This document shows positions 29,418 to 36,789 of a stretch of 64,000 nt of DNA, piece by piece. The DNA is from Actinokineospora enzanensis DSM 44649 (GTDB lineage Bacteria > Actinomycetota > Actinomycetes > Mycobacteriales > Pseudonocardiaceae). Positions within the stretch are counted from its first letter, which is position 1; the number at the start of each line of letters is the position of its first letter. Below the pieces are notes generated by a model. That model did not search any database and had not been told where the DNA came from. It saw only the letters and a list, made by a program, of their open reading frames with translations. The position numbers were made by a program, and so were the translations under genes. Location: positions 62,001 through 126,000 of the forward strand of contig NZ_KB894421.1 in the NCBI RefSeq assembly GCF_000374445.1, in the 5' to 3' direction.

Positions 29418-30725
29418 CTAGCCGACCAGCCTGCCGATCGCCGCGCGGGCCGCCCGCAGGGACTCGTCCCAGGGGACGCGGGTGGGTCGGGCGTCGGTGA
29501 TCACCGGTTCGCCCGCCACCCAGACGTCGCGGACGGTCCGGGAGCCCGCCGCCCAGACGAGGTTGGACAGCAGGTGGTCGTCGGCGATGTCCAGGCCCGC
29601 GGCGAAGGCCGGGTCGTCCACGCCGATGTGCACCAGGTCGGCCCAGCGACCGGGCTCCAGGGCGCCGATGTCGTCCCGGGACAGGGCCGCGGCGCCGCCC
29701 CGGGTGGCCAGGAGCAGGAGGTCGGCGGCGCGCAGGATGGTCGAGTCCATTGTGGAGACTCGACCGAGGAGTCCGGCCAGGCGCATGTCCTCCCAGAGGT
29801 CCAGGTCGTCGTTGCTGGCCGGGCCGTCGGTGCCCAGGCCGAGCGCGACGCCCGCCGCGCGCAGGTCGCCGACGCGGGCGATACCGGAGGCCAGCTTGGT
29901 GTTGGAGCCCGGACAGTGGGCCACGCCCACCTCGCGGCGGGCGAAGAGGGCGATGTCCTCGTCGGAGAGGTGCACCGAGTGGGCGGCCAGCACCCGGCCG
30001 CCGAGCAGCCCTGCCTTTTCCAGGAGCGCGGGCACCGATCCGTGCTCGGCGCGCTGCGCCACGTCTTCCGGGAGGGACTCGGCCACGTGGATCTGGATCA
30101 GGGCGTTTCGCTCTCGGGCGGCCGCGCCGATCTCGGTCAACGCCTCGGGAGGCAGGGTGTAGGCCGAATGCGGGCCGTAGCCCAGTTCGATTCGCTCTCC
30201 CGGGCCGGATCGCAGGCCGTCCGCGTCGATCCAGGCGTTGGTTTCGGCGAGCTGTTTGCGCCAGTCCCAGCCGGGGGCGTCGATGATCGCCGGGGCCAGC
30301 ACCACGCGGCTGCCGGTGGCAAGGGCGGCGCGAACCAGTTCTTCGCCGTGGAAGTACATCTCGGCGCTGGTGGTCACGCCCGCTCGAAGCATCTCCAGGG
30401 AGCCCAGGACCATGCCGGTGTGCACGTCCGATGGGTCGAGGCGGGCTTCCGCGGGCCAGATGACCTCGGTCAGCCAGCGCATCAGGGGGAGGTCGCCGCC
30501 CATGCCGCGCAGCAGCGTCATGGGGCTGTGGGCGTGGGTGTTGACCAGGCCCGGGATGAGAATGCCGGACAGCTCCCTGGTCGGTGCGTCCGTCGCCGGG
30601 GCGGTGCTTGTCGGTCCACAGTGGAGGATTCGGCCCGCTTCGTCGATATCGACGACGCCGTCTCGCACTACGGAGCATGCCGGATCGCAGGGCAGCACGA
30701 TGGGAGCGTGCAGACGCAGACTCAT
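29418..30725 (-). CDS. Amidohydrolase, MtaD/TrzN-like deaminase
   Basis: A 435-residue metal-dependent hydrolase from ATG 30725 (MSLRLHAPIVL). Metal ligands are visible in NTHAHSPMTLLRGM (about 64), IHVAES (about 208), AAHSVHLSD (about 242) and LGTDGPASNDDLDL (about 293); the C-terminal sandwich ends the chain. The family deaminates S-adenosylhomocysteine, methylthioadenosine, guanine-like or triazine compounds. PGSNTKLASGIARV is typical of the SAH/MTA deaminase branch. It lies 95 bases downstream of the NOS-like gene in the same direction and may be co-transcribed. The substrate cannot be fixed from sequence alone. Confidence 0.88.
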   Translation of the reverse strand: MSLRLHAPIVLPCDPACSVVRDGVVDIDEAGRILHCGPTSTAPATDAPTRELSGILIPGLVNTHAHSPMTLLRGMGGDLPLMRWLTEVIWPAEARLDPSDVHTGMVLGSLEMLRAGVTTSAEMYFHGEELVRAALATGSRVVLAPAIIDAPGWDWRKQLAETNAWIDADGLRSGPGERIELGYGPHSAYTLPPEALTEIGAAARERNALIQIHVAESLPEDVAQRAEHGSVPALLEKAGLLGGRVLAAHSVHLSDEDIALFARREVGVAHCPGSNTKLASGIARVGDLRAAGVALGLGTDGPASNDDLDLWEDMRLAGLLGRVSTMDSTILRAADLLLLATRGGAAALSRDDIGALEPGRWADLVHIGVDDPAFAAGLDIADDHLLSNLVWAAGSRTVRDVWVAGEPVITDARPTRVPWDESLRAARAAIGRLVG

Positions 30726-30820
30726 GGCGAGATTCTGCCACGCTTCTTCCGGCTGCGGTTTGTGGGGCGTGCGGCGCGATTTCGTTGATTGCCGGATGGC
30801 TGTGTCTCTGGAAAGGCCTG

Positions 30821-31873
30821 CTAGCCAGGGATCGGGGCCTGGCGTAGGAAGGCCGGGTGGTGCGGGGTTTCGGTGGCGGGGGCATAGACATCTGCGGAGT
30901 GTTCGATGCTCACGCCTGCGGTGTCGAAGGAGTGCAGCACCGCGCGGTTGAGTTCCAGGGCTGCCCGGTCGCGCCAGAGGGTGCGTTCGTTGGTGGTGTC
31001 CAGGCCCAGTTCGGTGGCTACCGTGGTGGCCATCCCGTATGCCGCTTCCTCGCCCAGCACGTCTTCGCCGATTGCCCGGCAGATGTAGACGCCGTTGTAG
31101 GGGGCGGCCGGATAGTTGATGCCGCCAATATGCAGGCGCATGTTGCTGATCACCGGAACGGCGTGCCAGCGGAGGTCGAGGCGGGTGAACCAGTCGAACT
31201 CGGGGTGGGTCAGCTCGACTTCGCGGACCGCGTCCCTGGGGATGGGGAACAGGCGGACGCCGTCGTCGTCGGTTTCGATTACCAAGGGGAGCAGGTCGAA
31301 TGGGCCGTGCGGGGTGGGTGGGAGCCAGCCAAGGCGGCAGACGCCGGTGGTGAACTCTATGTAGCGGCGGTCGCCGACGACGCCGCCGTTTTCCCGATAG
31401 CCCGCGTAGCGGACCAGTTGGTCGTTGCGGATTCGCGGGCCGAGGCGCCAGGGCGAGTCGGGGGCGAAGATGCTGACGACCGGGCGGACGGCGCCGTCGC
31501 CCGCCGCCATGCGGAGGTGGTGGACGCATTCGGCGGCCACGGCGGCCGCGTCGCGGACCTCCCGAAGATCCCGGACGAGCAGGCCGCGCCAAGGCACCGT
31601 GTCGGGGCACCAGCCGGTTTCGCGGAGGGCGACGCGGGCGCCGAAGGCGAGCTCGGCTGGGGTGTGCCGGTAGGTGCCGGTGGCCGCGATCTCGGCGCGG
31701 ACCTTGGCCAGCCGGGTGTCCAGCGGACCTGCCTTGGGGCGCGCCTCGTGGAACATCCGCAGGAAGCGTTCCGCCATGGCGAACAGCGGGTTGGTCGCCG
31801 AGCGGTCCGGGGGTGCCGGGGCGCGGTCGGTGGCGCGGGTGATTCCGTGGATGTCATCGCGCAGGGCGGTCAC
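30821..31873 (-). CDS. Divergent nitric-oxide-synthase-oxygenase-like haem protein
   Basis: A 350-residue protein clearly in the bacterial NOS oxygenase fold: LVRYAGYRENGG, FDLLPLVIETDDDG, LRWHAVPVISNMRLHIGGI, PAAPYNGVYI and ERTLWRDRAALELNRAVLHS. Cys89 aligns with the haem-thiolate cysteine. However, the usual AWRN-x2-RCIGR context is ALRE-TG-WCPDT, so the proximal Trp is Leu. The substrate-binding Glu of GWYM-x-TEIG is Ala (VYICRAIG, about residue 267). The chain also stops soon after AGVSIEH, missing the ~55-residue C-terminal pterin-binding segment. Canonical arginine-to-NO chemistry is therefore doubtful. No reductase gene is nearby; an amidohydrolase follows 95 bases downstream. Confidence 0.82.
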   Translation of the reverse strand: MTALRDDIHGITRATDRAPAPPDRSATNPLFAMAERFLRMFHEARPKAGPLDTRLAKVRAEIAATGTYRHTPAELAFGARVALRETGWCPDTVPWRGLLVRDLREVRDAAAVAAECVHHLRMAAGDGAVRPVVSIFAPDSPWRLGPRIRNDQLVRYAGYRENGGVVGDRRYIEFTTGVCRLGWLPPTPHGPFDLLPLVIETDDDGVRLFPIPRDAVREVELTHPEFDWFTRLDLRWHAVPVISNMRLHIGGINYPAAPYNGVYICRAIGEDVLGEEAAYGMATTVATELGLDTTNERTLWRDRAALELNRAVLHSFDTAGVSIEHSADVYAPATETPHHPAFLRQAPIPG

Positions 31874-31952
31874 ATCACTGAATATCGGTACCCGCGGCGC
31901 GCGCCTCGACTACTCGGACGTGTGGTGCTCACCGAACCGTCGTCACCGACGG

Positions 31953-32678
31953 TCAGTTCTTCACTCGTTCGAAGATGAGATCCCTGCTGATCCGACCCTC
32001 GACCCGGGCGCGGGACTCGAACTTGGTCACCGGCCGCCACTCGGGGCGCGGGGCCCAGCCGTCGAACCTGTTGCGCAGCAAGGGCTCCGCGGACAGCACT
32101 TCCAGCATCTGCTCGGCGTAGTTCTCCCAGTCCGTCGCCAGGTGCAGGGTGCCGCCGGGGGCGAGGCGACTGGCCAGCAGGGACACGAACCCGGGCTGCA
32201 CGAGCCGTCGCTTGTGGTGCTTCTTCTTCGGCCACGGGTCCGGGAAGAAGATCCGCACCCCGGACAGCGAGTCGGCGGCGATGTGCTGGGTGAGCAGGAC
32301 GACCGCGTCACCGCGCAGCAGCCGGACGTTGTCCAGGCCCATCTCCTCGACGCGCAGCATCAGCTGGGCGAGGCCGGGTTCGTAGACCTCCACGGCCAGG
32401 TAGTTCAGCTCGGGCGCGGCCTGGGCCAGTCGGGCGGTGGTCTCCCCCATGCCCGAGCCGATCTCCAACAGCACCGGCGCGGCACGGTCGAACCAGGTAT
32501 CCGTGTCCAGCGGGCCTGCGGGCAGCTCGGCGACCTGCCTGCCCCACCGCGGCCACGACCGTTCCCACGCCTTGCCCTGGCCGACGGTCATCCGTCCACC
32601 GCGGTGCACGAAACTCACGACGCCGCGCCTGCGCGGCTCGGTGGTGGTCTGGTCGGGCAGTCGGTCGGGCTGAGTCAC
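31953..32678 (-). CDS. trmB: tRNA (guanine-N7-)-methyltransferase
   Basis: About 241 residues from GTG 32678 (VTQPDRLP); a GTG at 32708 is the alternative. The SAM site is LLEIGSGMGETTARLA and the hallmark FFPDPWPKKKHHKRRLVQ is complete, followed by LHLATDWENYAEQM. It methylates G46 of tRNAs. The N-terminal region (RRRGVVSFVHRGGRMTVGQ) is typical of the actinobacterial form. A 7-bp hairpin just past the stop may be a weak terminator. Confidence 0.94.
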   Translation of the reverse strand: MTQPDRLPDQTTTEPRRRGVVSFVHRGGRMTVGQGKAWERSWPRWGRQVAELPAGPLDTDTWFDRAAPVLLEIGSGMGETTARLAQAAPELNYLAVEVYEPGLAQLMLRVEEMGLDNVRLLRGDAVVLLTQHIAADSLSGVRIFFPDPWPKKKHHKRRLVQPGFVSLLASRLAPGGTLHLATDWENYAEQMLEVLSAEPLLRNRFDGWAPRPEWRPVTKFESRARVEGRISRDLIFERVKN

Positions 32679-32751
32679 CCGGACAGCGTGCCACCTGCCG
32701 GTGCGCACGCCTCAGCGCGCCCCGGGCCCGCCGGGGCGCGGACCACGCCGC

Positions 32752-33477: not shown

Positions 33478-34224
33478 TCAGGCGTCGCGGCGAGTAGCCG
33501 AGAAGATCCCCGCGGTGAGCACGGCCAGCGCGATGACGGCGAAGTACAGCAGGTAGCCCCATGGGGTCAGCGGCAGGTCGACGACCTCCCTGGCGCCGTT
33601 GTCCCGGCCCACCCCGATGAACCGGTCGGCGGCGAAGAACGGCAGCCAGTGCTGGATGTCCTGGCCCACCTTGGGGATCAGCGTGACCAGGCTCTCCACC
33701 AGCAGCGAGTACACCAGCAGCAGCGCCACCGCGCCCGCGGTCTGCCGCACCAGGATGCCGACGCCGAGCGCGAGCAGCGCGGCGAGCGCGAACACCAGGG
33801 CCTGCCCGGCCACCGTGCGCCAGTCCTGCCCGGAGTCCAGTGCCAGGCCCGCGTTCGGCTTGATCAGCCGGAACATGGCCCAGCAGCCGAACCCGACGCA
33901 GGCGCCGATGACCCCGGTCAGCCCGGCCACCACGAGCGCCTTGGCCAGCAGCGCGGCCGACCGGTTGGGCACCGCCTGGAAGGTGCTGCGGATGGTGCCG
34001 AAGCGGTACTCGCTGGTCACCGCGAGCGCGGCCAGCACCAGCACGACCGACCGGCCGAGGCCCGCGGTCAGCTGGGTGGCGCCGATGTCGATCTCCAGGT
34101 CGCCGCCGGCCTGCGCGGCCAGCAGCGCGGTGAAGGCCACCGGCAACGCGATCGCCAGCAGTCCGCAGGCCCATGGCGAGCGGGTGCTGAACAGCTTGAT
34201 GCGCTCGGCGCTCACCAGGCTCAT
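33478..34224 (-). CDS. ABC-2 transporter permease (cassette 2)
   Basis: A 248-residue membrane protein with six predicted helices. The MSLVSAERIKLFSTRSPW N-terminus, TSEYRFGTIRSTFQAVPNR and SATRRDA C-terminus are nearly repeated in the two permeases at 35300 and 36025. Its ATG overlaps the stop of the ATPase gene by four bases. It is related to BcrB/NatB-type exporters of peptides or ions. Together with the 34221 ATPase it forms one complete exporter. Substrate unknown. Confidence 0.88.
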   Translation of the reverse strand: MSLVSAERIKLFSTRSPWACGLLAIALPVAFTALLAAQAGGDLEIDIGATQLTAGLGRSVVLVLAALAVTSEYRFGTIRSTFQAVPNRSAALLAKALVVAGLTGVIGACVGFGCWAMFRLIKPNAGLALDSGQDWRTVAGQALVFALAALLALGVGILVRQTAGAVALLLVYSLLVESLVTLIPKVGQDIQHWLPFFAADRFIGVGRDNGAREVVDLPLTPWGYLLYFAVIALAVLTAGIFSATRRDA

Positions 34225-35147
34225 GCGGACGAGGCCTCCTCGTGCGTGTGGTATTCGACGGCATCGCCGGTGAGCTGCATGAACGCCTGCTCCAGCGAGC
34301 CGACCTGGGGGTTGAGCTCGTGCAGCACGATCCCGTTCGCGGCGGCCAGCTCGCCGATCTCCGCACTGTCCATTCCGGACACCCGGAGTCCCGGCGGGGT
34401 GCCGGTGTCCGGGGCCACCGTGCCGCCGCCGATGCGCAGCAGCTCGGCCAGCGCGTCCAGCTGTGGGCTGCGCACCAGGACCGTGGTCTCGGTGGCGTGC
34501 GCGATGAAGTCCTCGACCGTGCCCTGGTAGATCAGCTTGCCGCGGCCGATGACTACCAGGTCCTGCGCGGTCTGCGCCATCTCGGAGAGCAGGTGGCTGG
34601 AGACGAAGACCGTGCGGCCGTTCTCCGCGAGCTGGTGCATGAACCGGCGGATCCACAGGATGCCCTCGGGGTCCAGACCGTTGACCGGTTCGTCGAACAG
34701 CAGCACCTGCGGGTCGCCCAGGAGCGCGGCGGCGATACCCAGCCGCTGGGACATGCCCAGCGAGAAACCGCCCGCGTTCTTCTTTGCCACCGAGGTGAGC
34801 CCGACCAGGTCGAGCACCTCGTCCACGCGCGAGGTCGGCAGCTTGTTCGAGGCGGCGAGCCAGCGCAGGTGCGCGCGGGCGGACCGGTTGGGGTGCACCC
34901 ACTTGGCGTCCAGCAGCGCGCCGACGGTACGCAGCGGTTGGTGCAGGTTGCGGTAGTGCTTGCCGTCCAGCAGCACGTCACCGGAGGTCGGGCGGTCCAG
35001 GCCGAGGATCATTCGCATGGTGGTGGACTTCCCGGCGCCGTTCGGGCCAAGGAACCCGGTGACCCGGCCCTCGCCGACGGTGAAAGACAGGTTGTCGACC
35101 GCGACGGTGCGGCCATAGCGCTTCGTCAGACCGGACGCCTCGATCAT
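34221..35147 (-). CDS. ABC transporter ATP-binding protein, BcrA-like (cassette 2)
   Basis: A 308-residue ATPase starting ATG 35147 (MIEASGLTKRYG). Walker A is GPNGAGKSTT, the signature FSLGMSQRLGIAAA, and Walker B VLLFDEPVNGLDPEGI. The C-terminal ~90 residues contain the VLHELNPQVGSLEQAFMQLT ending typical of BcrA-type bacitracin exporters. It is a paralogue of the 36794 ATPase, with long identical stretches such as GALLDAKWVHPNRSARAH. Translationally coupled to its permease. Confidence 0.92.
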   Translation of the reverse strand: MIEASGLTKRYGRTVAVDNLSFTVGEGRVTGFLGPNGAGKSTTMRMILGLDRPTSGDVLLDGKHYRNLHQPLRTVGALLDAKWVHPNRSARAHLRWLAASNKLPTSRVDEVLDLVGLTSVAKKNAGGFSLGMSQRLGIAAALLGDPQVLLFDEPVNGLDPEGILWIRRFMHQLAENGRTVFVSSHLLSEMAQTAQDLVVIGRGKLIYQGTVEDFIAHATETTVLVRSPQLDALAELLRIGGGTVAPDTGTPPGLRVSGMDSAEIGELAAANGIVLHELNPQVGSLEQAFMQLTGDAVEYHTHEEASSA

Positions 35148-35210
35148 GCGCCCGATGGTCGCACGCACCAGCCCACCGCGCTAACGGACAGCTAAAGGTC
35201 GAACGAGCGG

Positions 35211-35245
35211 AGCCCGGGTCGCCTCCCCGTAAGGCGACCCGGGCT
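35211..35245. terminator. Terminator of ABC cassette 1
   Basis: A 13-bp perfect stem (35211-35223 and 35233-35245) with a 9-base loop separates the two duplicated ABC cassettes. Confidence 0.8.
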
Positions 35246-35299
35246 CTTTCCCCGTGGTGGTCCCGCCGCTCCCCGAATGATCGGCGGGACCGGGTGGAC

Positions 35300-36025
35300 C
35301 TACGCGTCGCGCTTGTTCGCGACGACCAGTGCGGCGATCAGCAGTGCTGCCGTGACCCCGGCGAAGTAGAGCAGCGAGCCCCAGGGGGACTGCGGCGCCT
35401 CCGGCACCGGGTTGAGGAACCGCCCGGCGTTGATGAACGGCATCCAGTCCTGGATGTCCCGGCCGACATTGGGGATCAGCGCGACCAGGTTCTCCACCAG
35501 CAGCGGCCAGATCAGCAGGATGGACAGGGCGCCCGCGGACTGGCGGACCAGCACGCCGACGGCCACCGAGAGCACCGCCGCGAGAGCGAAGACCAGCCCG
35601 GCGCCCGCGACCATGCGCAGGTCGTCGCCGGTGCTGATGGCCAGCTCCGGGCTGCTGTCGATCATCCGCGCGACCGCCCAGGAGCCGAACGCGGCGATCT
35701 CGCCGAGCACGCCTGCCAGCACGGCGACCACCACGCACTTGGCCAGCAGCACGCCGCTGCGGTTGGGCACCGCCTGGAAGGTGGTCCGGATGGTGGCGAA
35801 GCGGTACTCGGTGGTGATGGCCAGCGCGGCCATCACGGTGATGATCATCAGGCCGAACTGGATGCCGAACTGGCTGTGCTCCACCCGCAGCGGGTTGTTC
35901 CCGCCGTGGTTGAGCGCGACCATCACGGCCATGCCGATGGTGAGGCCGAGCGCGAGCAGCGCGGACCACCATGGCGAGCGAGTGGTGAACAGCTTGATCC
36001 GCTCGGTGGCGAGCAGCGTGGTCAT
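35300..36025 (-). CDS. ABC-2 transporter permease (cassette 1, second)
   Basis: A 241-residue permease (MTTLLATERIKLFTTRSPWW ... VANKRDA) with six predicted helices and the conserved TTEYRFATIRTTFQAVPNR loop. It overlaps the stop of the preceding permease by a TGATG junction, so the two are translated together. Two unequal permeases with one ATPase suggest a heterodimeric channel. A terminator follows within 55 bases of the stop. Confidence 0.87.
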   Translation of the reverse strand: MTTLLATERIKLFTTRSPWWSALLALGLTIGMAVMVALNHGGNNPLRVEHSQFGIQFGLMIITVMAALAITTEYRFATIRTTFQAVPNRSGVLLAKCVVVAVLAGVLGEIAAFGSWAVARMIDSSPELAISTGDDLRMVAGAGLVFALAAVLSVAVGVLVRQSAGALSILLIWPLLVENLVALIPNVGRDIQDWMPFINAGRFLNPVPEAPQSPWGSLLYFAGVTAALLIAALVVANKRDA

Positions 36026-36789
36026 CAGGCATCCCTCCGCTTGGCCGTGGTGATGGCGATGACCAGTACGACCACGGCGAAGGCCGCGAAGTAGAGCAGC
36101 GCGGGCCACGGGCCAAGGCCCGCCTCGGCGGGCGGCGGCCCCTCGTTGATCGGGCGCGTGGTGATGTCCGCGTCCCCGGTGATGAACGCGTTGGACATGT
36201 TGAACGGCAGCCAACGGTGGATCTTCGGACCGATCGTGGGGATCAGCGTGACCAGGCCCTCGACCAGGTTGGTGTAGATCAGCAGCAGCGCGATGGCGCC
36301 CGCCGAGTGCCGCACCAGCACGCCGACGCCGACCGCGATCACGGCCGCGATGGCGTACACCAGGCCGACGCCTGCCACCGCGCGCCACTCGTAGGCGGTG
36401 TCGATGCCAAGGTCGGCACTGGACTTGATCAGCTTGCTGATGCCCCAGGAGCCGAACGCGCACAGCTCGCCGACGATCCCGGCCAGGATCGCCACCACGG
36501 CCGTCTTGGCCAGCAGCGCGGTCGGGCGGTTGGGCACGGCCAGGAAGGTGGCCCGGATGGTGGAGAACCGGTACTCGGTGGTGATCGCCAGCGCGGCCAT
36601 CACCATCACCACGACCAGGCCGAAGGTATAGCCGAACTGGGTGGCGGCGACGTTCATCGGGGACGCGGCGTTCGAGGTGCCGGACATCAGCGCGCCGAAC
36701 CCGATCGTGATGGCGAGCGCGATCGCGGTGCACCACCAGGGCGAGCGGGTGGAGAACAGCTTCATCCGCTCGACAGCGAGGAGAGTCAT
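36025..36789 (-). CDS. ABC-2 transporter permease (cassette 1, first)
   Basis: A 254-residue permease (MTLLAVERMKLFSTRSPWW ... TTAKRRDA), paralogous to the two other permeases here. It has six predicted helices, with an extra loop containing Pro-rich NEGPPPAEAG before the last helix. It lies four bases after the ATPase gene and overlaps the next permease. The role is in the same exporter; substrate unknown. Confidence 0.87.
   Translation of the reverse strand: MTLLAVERMKLFSTRSPWWCTAIALAITIGFGALMSGTSNAASPMNVAATQFGYTFGLVVVMVMAALAITTEYRFSTIRATFLAVPNRPTALLAKTAVVAILAGIVGELCAFGSWGISKLIKSSADLGIDTAYEWRAVAGVGLVYAIAAVIAVGVGVLVRHSAGAIALLLIYTNLVEGLVTLIPTIGPKIHRWLPFNMSNAFITGDADITTRPINEGPPPAEAGLGPWPALLYFAAFAVVVLVIAITTAKRRDA

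Follow-up and report, generated by a model that had tools for sequence, protein, structure and literature searches.

The 64,000-nucleotide stretch of the Actinokineospora enzanensis DSM 44649 genome analyzed here (RefSeq assembly GCF_000374445.1, contig NZ_KB894421.1, positions 62,001 to 126,000; the window) contains a gene at positions 30821..31873 whose product resembles the oxygenase domain of nitric oxide synthase (NOS). We think it fairly probable that in this one bacterial family, the Pseudonocardiaceae, the NOS fold has been repurposed stepwise, giving a pterin-free haem-thiolate protein that does not use arginine (motifs WCP, NGVY, and IGE[DE]) and then a form in which the haem cysteine is replaced by tyrosine, a series leading to a haem or binding protein with a new ligand. 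For the window protein itself, our leading, still tentative, reading is that it is a regulatory, ligand-binding haem protein (a pseudo-NOS) that no longer makes nitric oxide (NO).

The gene lies on the minus strand and encodes 350 amino acids from a GTG start, as judged from its open reading frame (ORF), its Pfam match, and its orthologues, most of which share the N-terminal sequence MTALRD. The match to the NOS oxygenase family PF02898 scores 318.4 bits and runs from profile position 4 to 299 of 362, leaving the last 63 positions uncovered. As the original prediction had stated, the frame is intact and codon usage is normal: GC content by codon position is 0.72/0.52/0.87, compared with 0.75/0.52/0.89 for the adjacent amidohydrolase gene. 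The 8.1 Mb genome also encodes a canonical NOS on another contig (C42, loci L001/L019), which is 54% identical to the window protein over residues 9–324. NCBIfam gave no name to the window protein, nor to the canonical and G-type (see below) NOS proteins tested alongside, and a scan of positions 30600–32100 for promoters and terminators found nothing.

To place the protein among its relatives, NOS proteins were gathered from the family, order, and class; 171 different ones were aligned and 6 fragments dropped, leaving 165 rows. Residues of the window protein were mapped by a residue-by-residue alignment with Geobacillus NOS (2flq), and the rows were sorted by their states at positions 83, 89, and 267, such that the per-group counts at these three positions hold by construction and the other columns are independent. 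Ninety-two rows are canonical (Trp, Cys, and Glu), 42 are of a G type that keeps the acid and lacks the proximal Trp, and 23 are of the X type to which the window protein belongs, with Cys and without the acid; the rest are 3 rows of a separate Glu-less group and 5 that lack the Cys. Rows with identical cores (164 to 111 in one step, uncounted in another) and matches under 120 or 80 bits had been left out beforehand. Beyond the family, sampling covered 348 genomes from the order and 345 from the class, both sets including some family members, and part of their matches was read; no match seen outside the family exceeded 390 bits, compared with at least 514 for X rows, a comparison that cannot exclude G-type proteins there.

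The haem side of the protein is retained. Cys89 (codon 31607..31609, minus strand, as for all codons given here) aligns with the haem-ligating cysteine of Geobacillus NOS, and this position is Cys in all 16 Actinokineospora genes and in 23/23 X rows. Six residues earlier, Leu83 (31625..31627) takes the place of a Geobacillus Trp, which we take to be the proximal Trp that contacts the cysteine. X rows have Leu (21) or Val (2) here, and Trp occurs in none of the 43 tree rows of the divergent clade described below, compared with all 69 others. Around the cysteine, W88-C89-P90-D91-T92 aligns on R-C-I-G-R; Trp88 and Pro90 are each present in all 23 X rows, and Trp88 is also found in 40 of the 42 G rows, compared with Arg (86) or Lys (6) in the 92 canonical rows. 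Several other residues are kept in the X rows, including Gln152 (22), Pro240 (23), Ile242 (22), and Asn260, Gly261, and Tyr263 (23 each).

The presumed substrate side is altered. Val262 (31088..31090; Val in 22 and Ile in 1 of the X rows) stands where canonical NOSs have the Trp of NGWY (88 of 92 rows; 41 of 42 G rows), presumably the substrate-site Trp. At the position of the Glu of TEIGARN, which we assume to be the arginine-binding residue, the window protein has Ala267 (31073..31075), and the X rows have Ala (19), Thr (2), Gly (1), or Ser (1); none of the 16 Actinokineospora genes has an acid here, compared with Glu in 38 and Asp in 4 of the G rows. The alignment with 2flq thus agrees with the original prediction, which had listed a retained haem cysteine and fold, Glu changed to Ala, proximal Trp changed to Leu, and RCIGR changed to WCPDT.

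An acid still present in the substrate site would count against the original prediction, and there is a candidate. Glu270-Asp271 (31061..31066) form an acidic pair, three and four residues after Ala267 and one helix turn on, that is fixed in the X group (Glu270 in 23/23; Asp in 21 and Glu in 2 at position 271). Canonical rows mostly have Ala at 270 (75 of 92) and always Arg at 271 (92 of 92; 40 of 42 in the G type), an Arg that we presume lies on the pterin side. The pair falls within a helix predicted at residues 265–274, a stretch where both structure models are unreliable, and may be a relocated substrate acid. These models, two AlphaFold2 predictions from 22 sequences, have mean predicted local distance difference test (pLDDT) scores of 66 and 71. 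The original prediction had proposed to inspect the surroundings of Cys89 and residue 267, and the models show the fold clearly; pLDDT is below 50 at residues 261–264 in one model and 261–270 in the other, which makes the pocket unreliable.

The pterin site, defined by the Arg together with a WSW/WTW segment, is also missing. The segment is absent from every X and G row (0/23 for X) and present in 91/92 canonical rows. The exception among the canonical rows, L064 from a Pseudonocardia metagenome-assembled genome, has a frame that departs from the family before the pterin segment, which may be a sequencing error. In place of this WSWIVPP-containing segment, the window protein ends in a short tail (residues 325–350; 30824..30901) with the sequence PAFLR, which is common to most relatives (P-x-F type motif in 22/23 X rows) and may correspond to TPVFHR of canonical NOS. 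The original estimate that some 55 C-terminal residues are missing is roughly right, given the 63 uncovered profile positions, while from the alignment an internal deletion followed by a short tail may describe the C terminus better than a plain truncation.

Judged by its fold and cysteine, the window protein is a member of the NOS superfamily; judged by its proximal Trp, substrate Glu, and pterin site, it fails as a NOS. Because a gene without these three elements still matches at 318 bits, a PF02898 match in actinobacteria is no proof of NO synthesis.

How did these losses arise? A tree was built from 112 of the 165 rows after thinning of near-copies, with columns 83–97 and 260–272 left out. 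The X and G rows group with one Cys-less row in a clade of 43 (support 100/93) nested in the canonical NOSs of Pseudonocardiaceae, in which a subclade of 22 (100/99) unites 21 X rows with the Cys-less row. A clade sharing the substitutions, for which the original prediction had suggested a profile search, was found in this way. Mapping the states on the tree gives a single change of the proximal Trp and two of the acid at 267. The Cys and the pterin motif each change three times; one of the Cys changes lies inside the clade, and one of the pterin changes accounts for the clade as a whole. From these counts, loss began with the proximal Trp and the pterin segment, then reached the substrate Glu on two separate occasions, and came to the Cys last, in one genus. 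A description of the clade was not found among the titles and abstract openings listed from the open-licence literature, where its absence shows little.

The Cys-less lineage, which branches basally in the X clade, is a genus of eight genomes (g22) in which the gene lies between trmB and an amidohydrolase gene. Tyr replaces Cys in 7/7 intact copies (for example, GVYTDG; L236–L242 of genomes G212–G217 and G219), whereas G218 has a broken copy (L243, L258). These genes have lost the distal Pro/Ile motif, and their median ratio of nonsynonymous to synonymous substitution rates (dN/dS) is 0.158, indicative of purifying selection. In 6/8 of the genomes, intact canonical and G-type genes, the latter encoding the Glu/Asp-keeping, pterin-free form, accompany the Tyr form.

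Related changes were seen in other branches. Inside the G type, where the separate Glu-less group falls on the tree, the substrate Glu was lost a second time, independently (L159, L178, and L183 of G016–G018; GGTVGSRD or GGTVGTRD, with Trp at 262 kept). NOS relatives from a different family of the same order have Gly in place of the Cys (L195–L197 of G423, G401, and G431; ADRGIGRLRW or ADKGIGRLRW), keep the Glu, lack the pterin segment, and give readings of 324–329 amino acids; a fourth genome, G414, also matched. Finally, L161 (G322) is a very divergent NOS relative in which Leu occupies the Cys position; its end branch on the tree is 2.1.

Within Actinokineospora, the gene is conserved in 16/16 genomes examined, including that of A. 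enzanensis, with identities of 66%–81% in the other 15, far above chance. Each of the 16 frames stays open as far as the same C-terminal region; the single stop marked in 5/16 orthologue matches (L005 and L007–L010) is, by alignment, each gene's own terminal stop. Canonical NOSs, 53%–57% identical, also occur in 11/16 of these genomes. By the Nei-Gojobori method, which gives rough values for such GC-rich genes, the median dN/dS is 0.388 for the NOS-like genes (120 pairs) and 0.371 for the canonical ones (55 pairs), and the six closest X pairs fall between 0.12 and 0.23. A lone decayed copy, which would have undone the original prediction, is ruled out by the 16 orthologues and these ratios. 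That the gene might be a functionless, decaying duplicate is very improbable: the catalytic residues were indeed lost stepwise and one copy in the Cys-less genus is broken, but the open frames, the genus-wide fixation, and a dN/dS near that of the canonical paralogue all speak against it. The window gene comes from a conserved lineage whose members are intact, so it probably serves a new function and is not in decay.

The gene's neighborhood was compared between genomes. Upstream, in 15/16 Actinokineospora loci within 300 bp and on the same strand, is a tRNA methyltransferase gene that we label trmB (31953..32708, minus strand; Pfam Methyltransf_4). Downstream in the window is a TRZ/ATZ-like amidohydrolase gene (29418..30725, minus strand; Amidohydro_1), whose product is below every NCBIfam cut-off listed, with the TRZ/ATZ family as its best match. 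Gene distances are between matched stretches rather than exact gene ends; by this measure the amidohydrolase gene lies 17–99 bp downstream in 11/16 Actinokineospora loci. In the other five genomes it is 11–23 kb away on the opposite strand or on a different contig, and homologues also sit beside the canonical NOS of Pseudonocardia and beside NOS-like genes of other family members that keep the Glu. The amidohydrolase, which the original prediction put forward as a possible partner, is weakened as a candidate by both observations and is probably not one. The same neighborhood surrounds the canonical NOS of Pseudonocardia and, in other members of the family, the G type (trmB in 26/28 G contexts examined). 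Further upstream of trmB, ORFs at 33478–36789 that we label as resembling ABC permeases and an ATPase have homologues near the gene in the 15 other Actinokineospora loci.

Sister-type loci were also compared: 31 in all, 28 of the G type and 3 of the second Glu-less group. Fourteen of them have a histidine-kinase homologue on the same strand less than 1 kb downstream, and nine have one at 4–5.1 kb; the remainder have VanZ/RDD membrane proteins downstream (3) or neither (5). In the 14 close cases (L108, L111, L114, L135, and others) the kinase begins ∼260–850 bp past the NOS-like match, and the L108 copy was confirmed by Pfam. None of the 16 Actinokineospora X loci has such a homologue on the same strand in the 5 kb that follow; the kinase is thus a lead from sister loci that was dropped as a partner of the window gene.

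What might the window protein do? According to PMC9500659, NOS chemistry rests on a haem-pterin-arginine triangle, and the Cys-Trp contact is thought to tune the haem. In our reading, a Pseudonocardiaceae NOS paralogue placed beside trmB lost the proximal Trp and pterin segment once, and the branch with the window gene then also lost the arginine-binding Glu and Trp and gained the fixed acidic pair one helix turn away. The data show the substitutions, their fixation in a clade, purifying selection, synteny, and the sequence of losses on the tree; haem binding and the end of NO synthesis are inferred from these. With the haem-thiolate Cys and most distal pocket residues retained, the protein would continue to bind haem and would not turn arginine into NO; its enlarged distal pocket may bind a small ligand other than arginine, and its altered proximal side may retune the haem. 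Haem binding is most likely, since the Cys and most distal residues are kept, and NO synthesis from arginine is unlikely, since the protein departs from NOS at the arginine site, at the pterin site, and in the proximal contact. As the haem side is kept and the new residues are fixed instead of varying from row to row, the protein is best read as binding haem together with a different ligand. The regulatory role is the least certain part; we lean toward it because a sensor kinase often neighbors the sister type and because one related lineage has persisted after losing its Cys.

Several points weigh against a regulatory haem protein. With no kinase downstream in the X loci, the signaling hint belongs to the sister group, and even there 8/31 loci have none within 5.1 kb; the kinases, found by similarity to two of them, are a common family, and the G loci were hand-picked from top matches rather than drawn at random. 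Haem binding is predicted from sequence, and the low pLDDT at residues 261–270 leaves the pocket unfit to be judged. Moreover, the invariant Cys89, Trp88, Pro90, Glu270, and distal residues fit an active enzyme equally well. The main rival, close behind, is indeed a new haem-thiolate oxygenase or peroxygenase, in which a distal pocket opened by the Trp-to-Val and Glu-to-Ala changes would let the protein oxidize a larger substrate independently of pterin, with peroxide or with the help of some electron donor. We consider this a real but lesser possibility: the near-invariant distal residues and the fixation of W88, P90, E270, and D/E271 in 23/23 X rows look like gained function and not decay, and constraint is about equal to that on canonical NOS, but the two immediate neighbors provide no constant enzyme partner (trmB in 15/16 and the amidohydrolase in 11/16 Actinokineospora loci), and the basal lineage of the X clade has kept its gene despite the change of Cys to Tyr and the loss of the distal Pro and Ile.

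That same lineage, with its low dN/dS, and the Cys-to-Gly relatives in another family would suit a haem-free scaffold or binding protein whose fold is kept for protein-protein contact, haem being dispensable. We regard this as rather unlikely for the window protein given the nearly invariant distal pocket of the X group and the Cys in all 16 Actinokineospora genes; Tyr, moreover, is a haem ligand in other haem proteins and could itself serve as one in the Cys-less genus. It is less probable still that the protein is a residual NOS-like enzyme in which Glu270/Asp271 hold the guanidine and the second reaction step, or a peroxide shunt, yields NO without pterin. An acidic pair in every X row exactly where the acid at 267 was lost would fit, as would the retention of Gln152, Tyr263, and Pro240, presumably substrate-side residues; however, the substrate-site Trp has become Val, the Arg at 271 has become Asp or Glu, the pterin segment and proximal Trp are gone, and 11/16 genomes already have a canonical NOS. 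A regulatory NOS-like protein and a new haem-thiolate activity, the two readings offered by the original prediction, would remain the right pair.

The catalytic pocket is described as highly conserved in all NOSs (PMC9500659). A NOS lineage in which key elements were lost in a readable order, with the genes still intact, allows one to ask what each element contributes and what the NOS fold does without arginine, pterin, and the Cys-Trp pair.

Compared with the Geobacillus and Bacillus NOSs (PDB 2flq and 1m7v), the window protein is alike in fold, haem Cys, Gln152, Tyr263, and distal Pro240 and Ile242, and differs in lacking the proximal Trp, the substrate Glu and Trp, and WSWIVPP, with RCIGR replaced by WCPDT and the Arg at 271 by Asp/Glu. 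The canonical NOS of its own genome, which retains Trp at the proximal position as well as the Glu, the Arg, and the pterin segment, resides at a different locus; the two kinds occur together in 11/16 genomes of the genus. The G-type paralogue of other Pseudonocardiaceae genera shares the trmB neighborhood and the lack of proximal Trp and pterin segment, but has an acid at 267 (42 of 42 rows), Trp at 262 (41/42), and often a histidine kinase next to it. TxtD, RufN, PtnF, and Laj3 are likewise actinobacterial NOS homologues, and in PMC9500659 and PMC10831120 they are described as NO makers that serve nitration and other NO-dependent steps, with conserved catalytic centers in TxtD, RufN, and PtnF; these are residues that the window gene no longer has.
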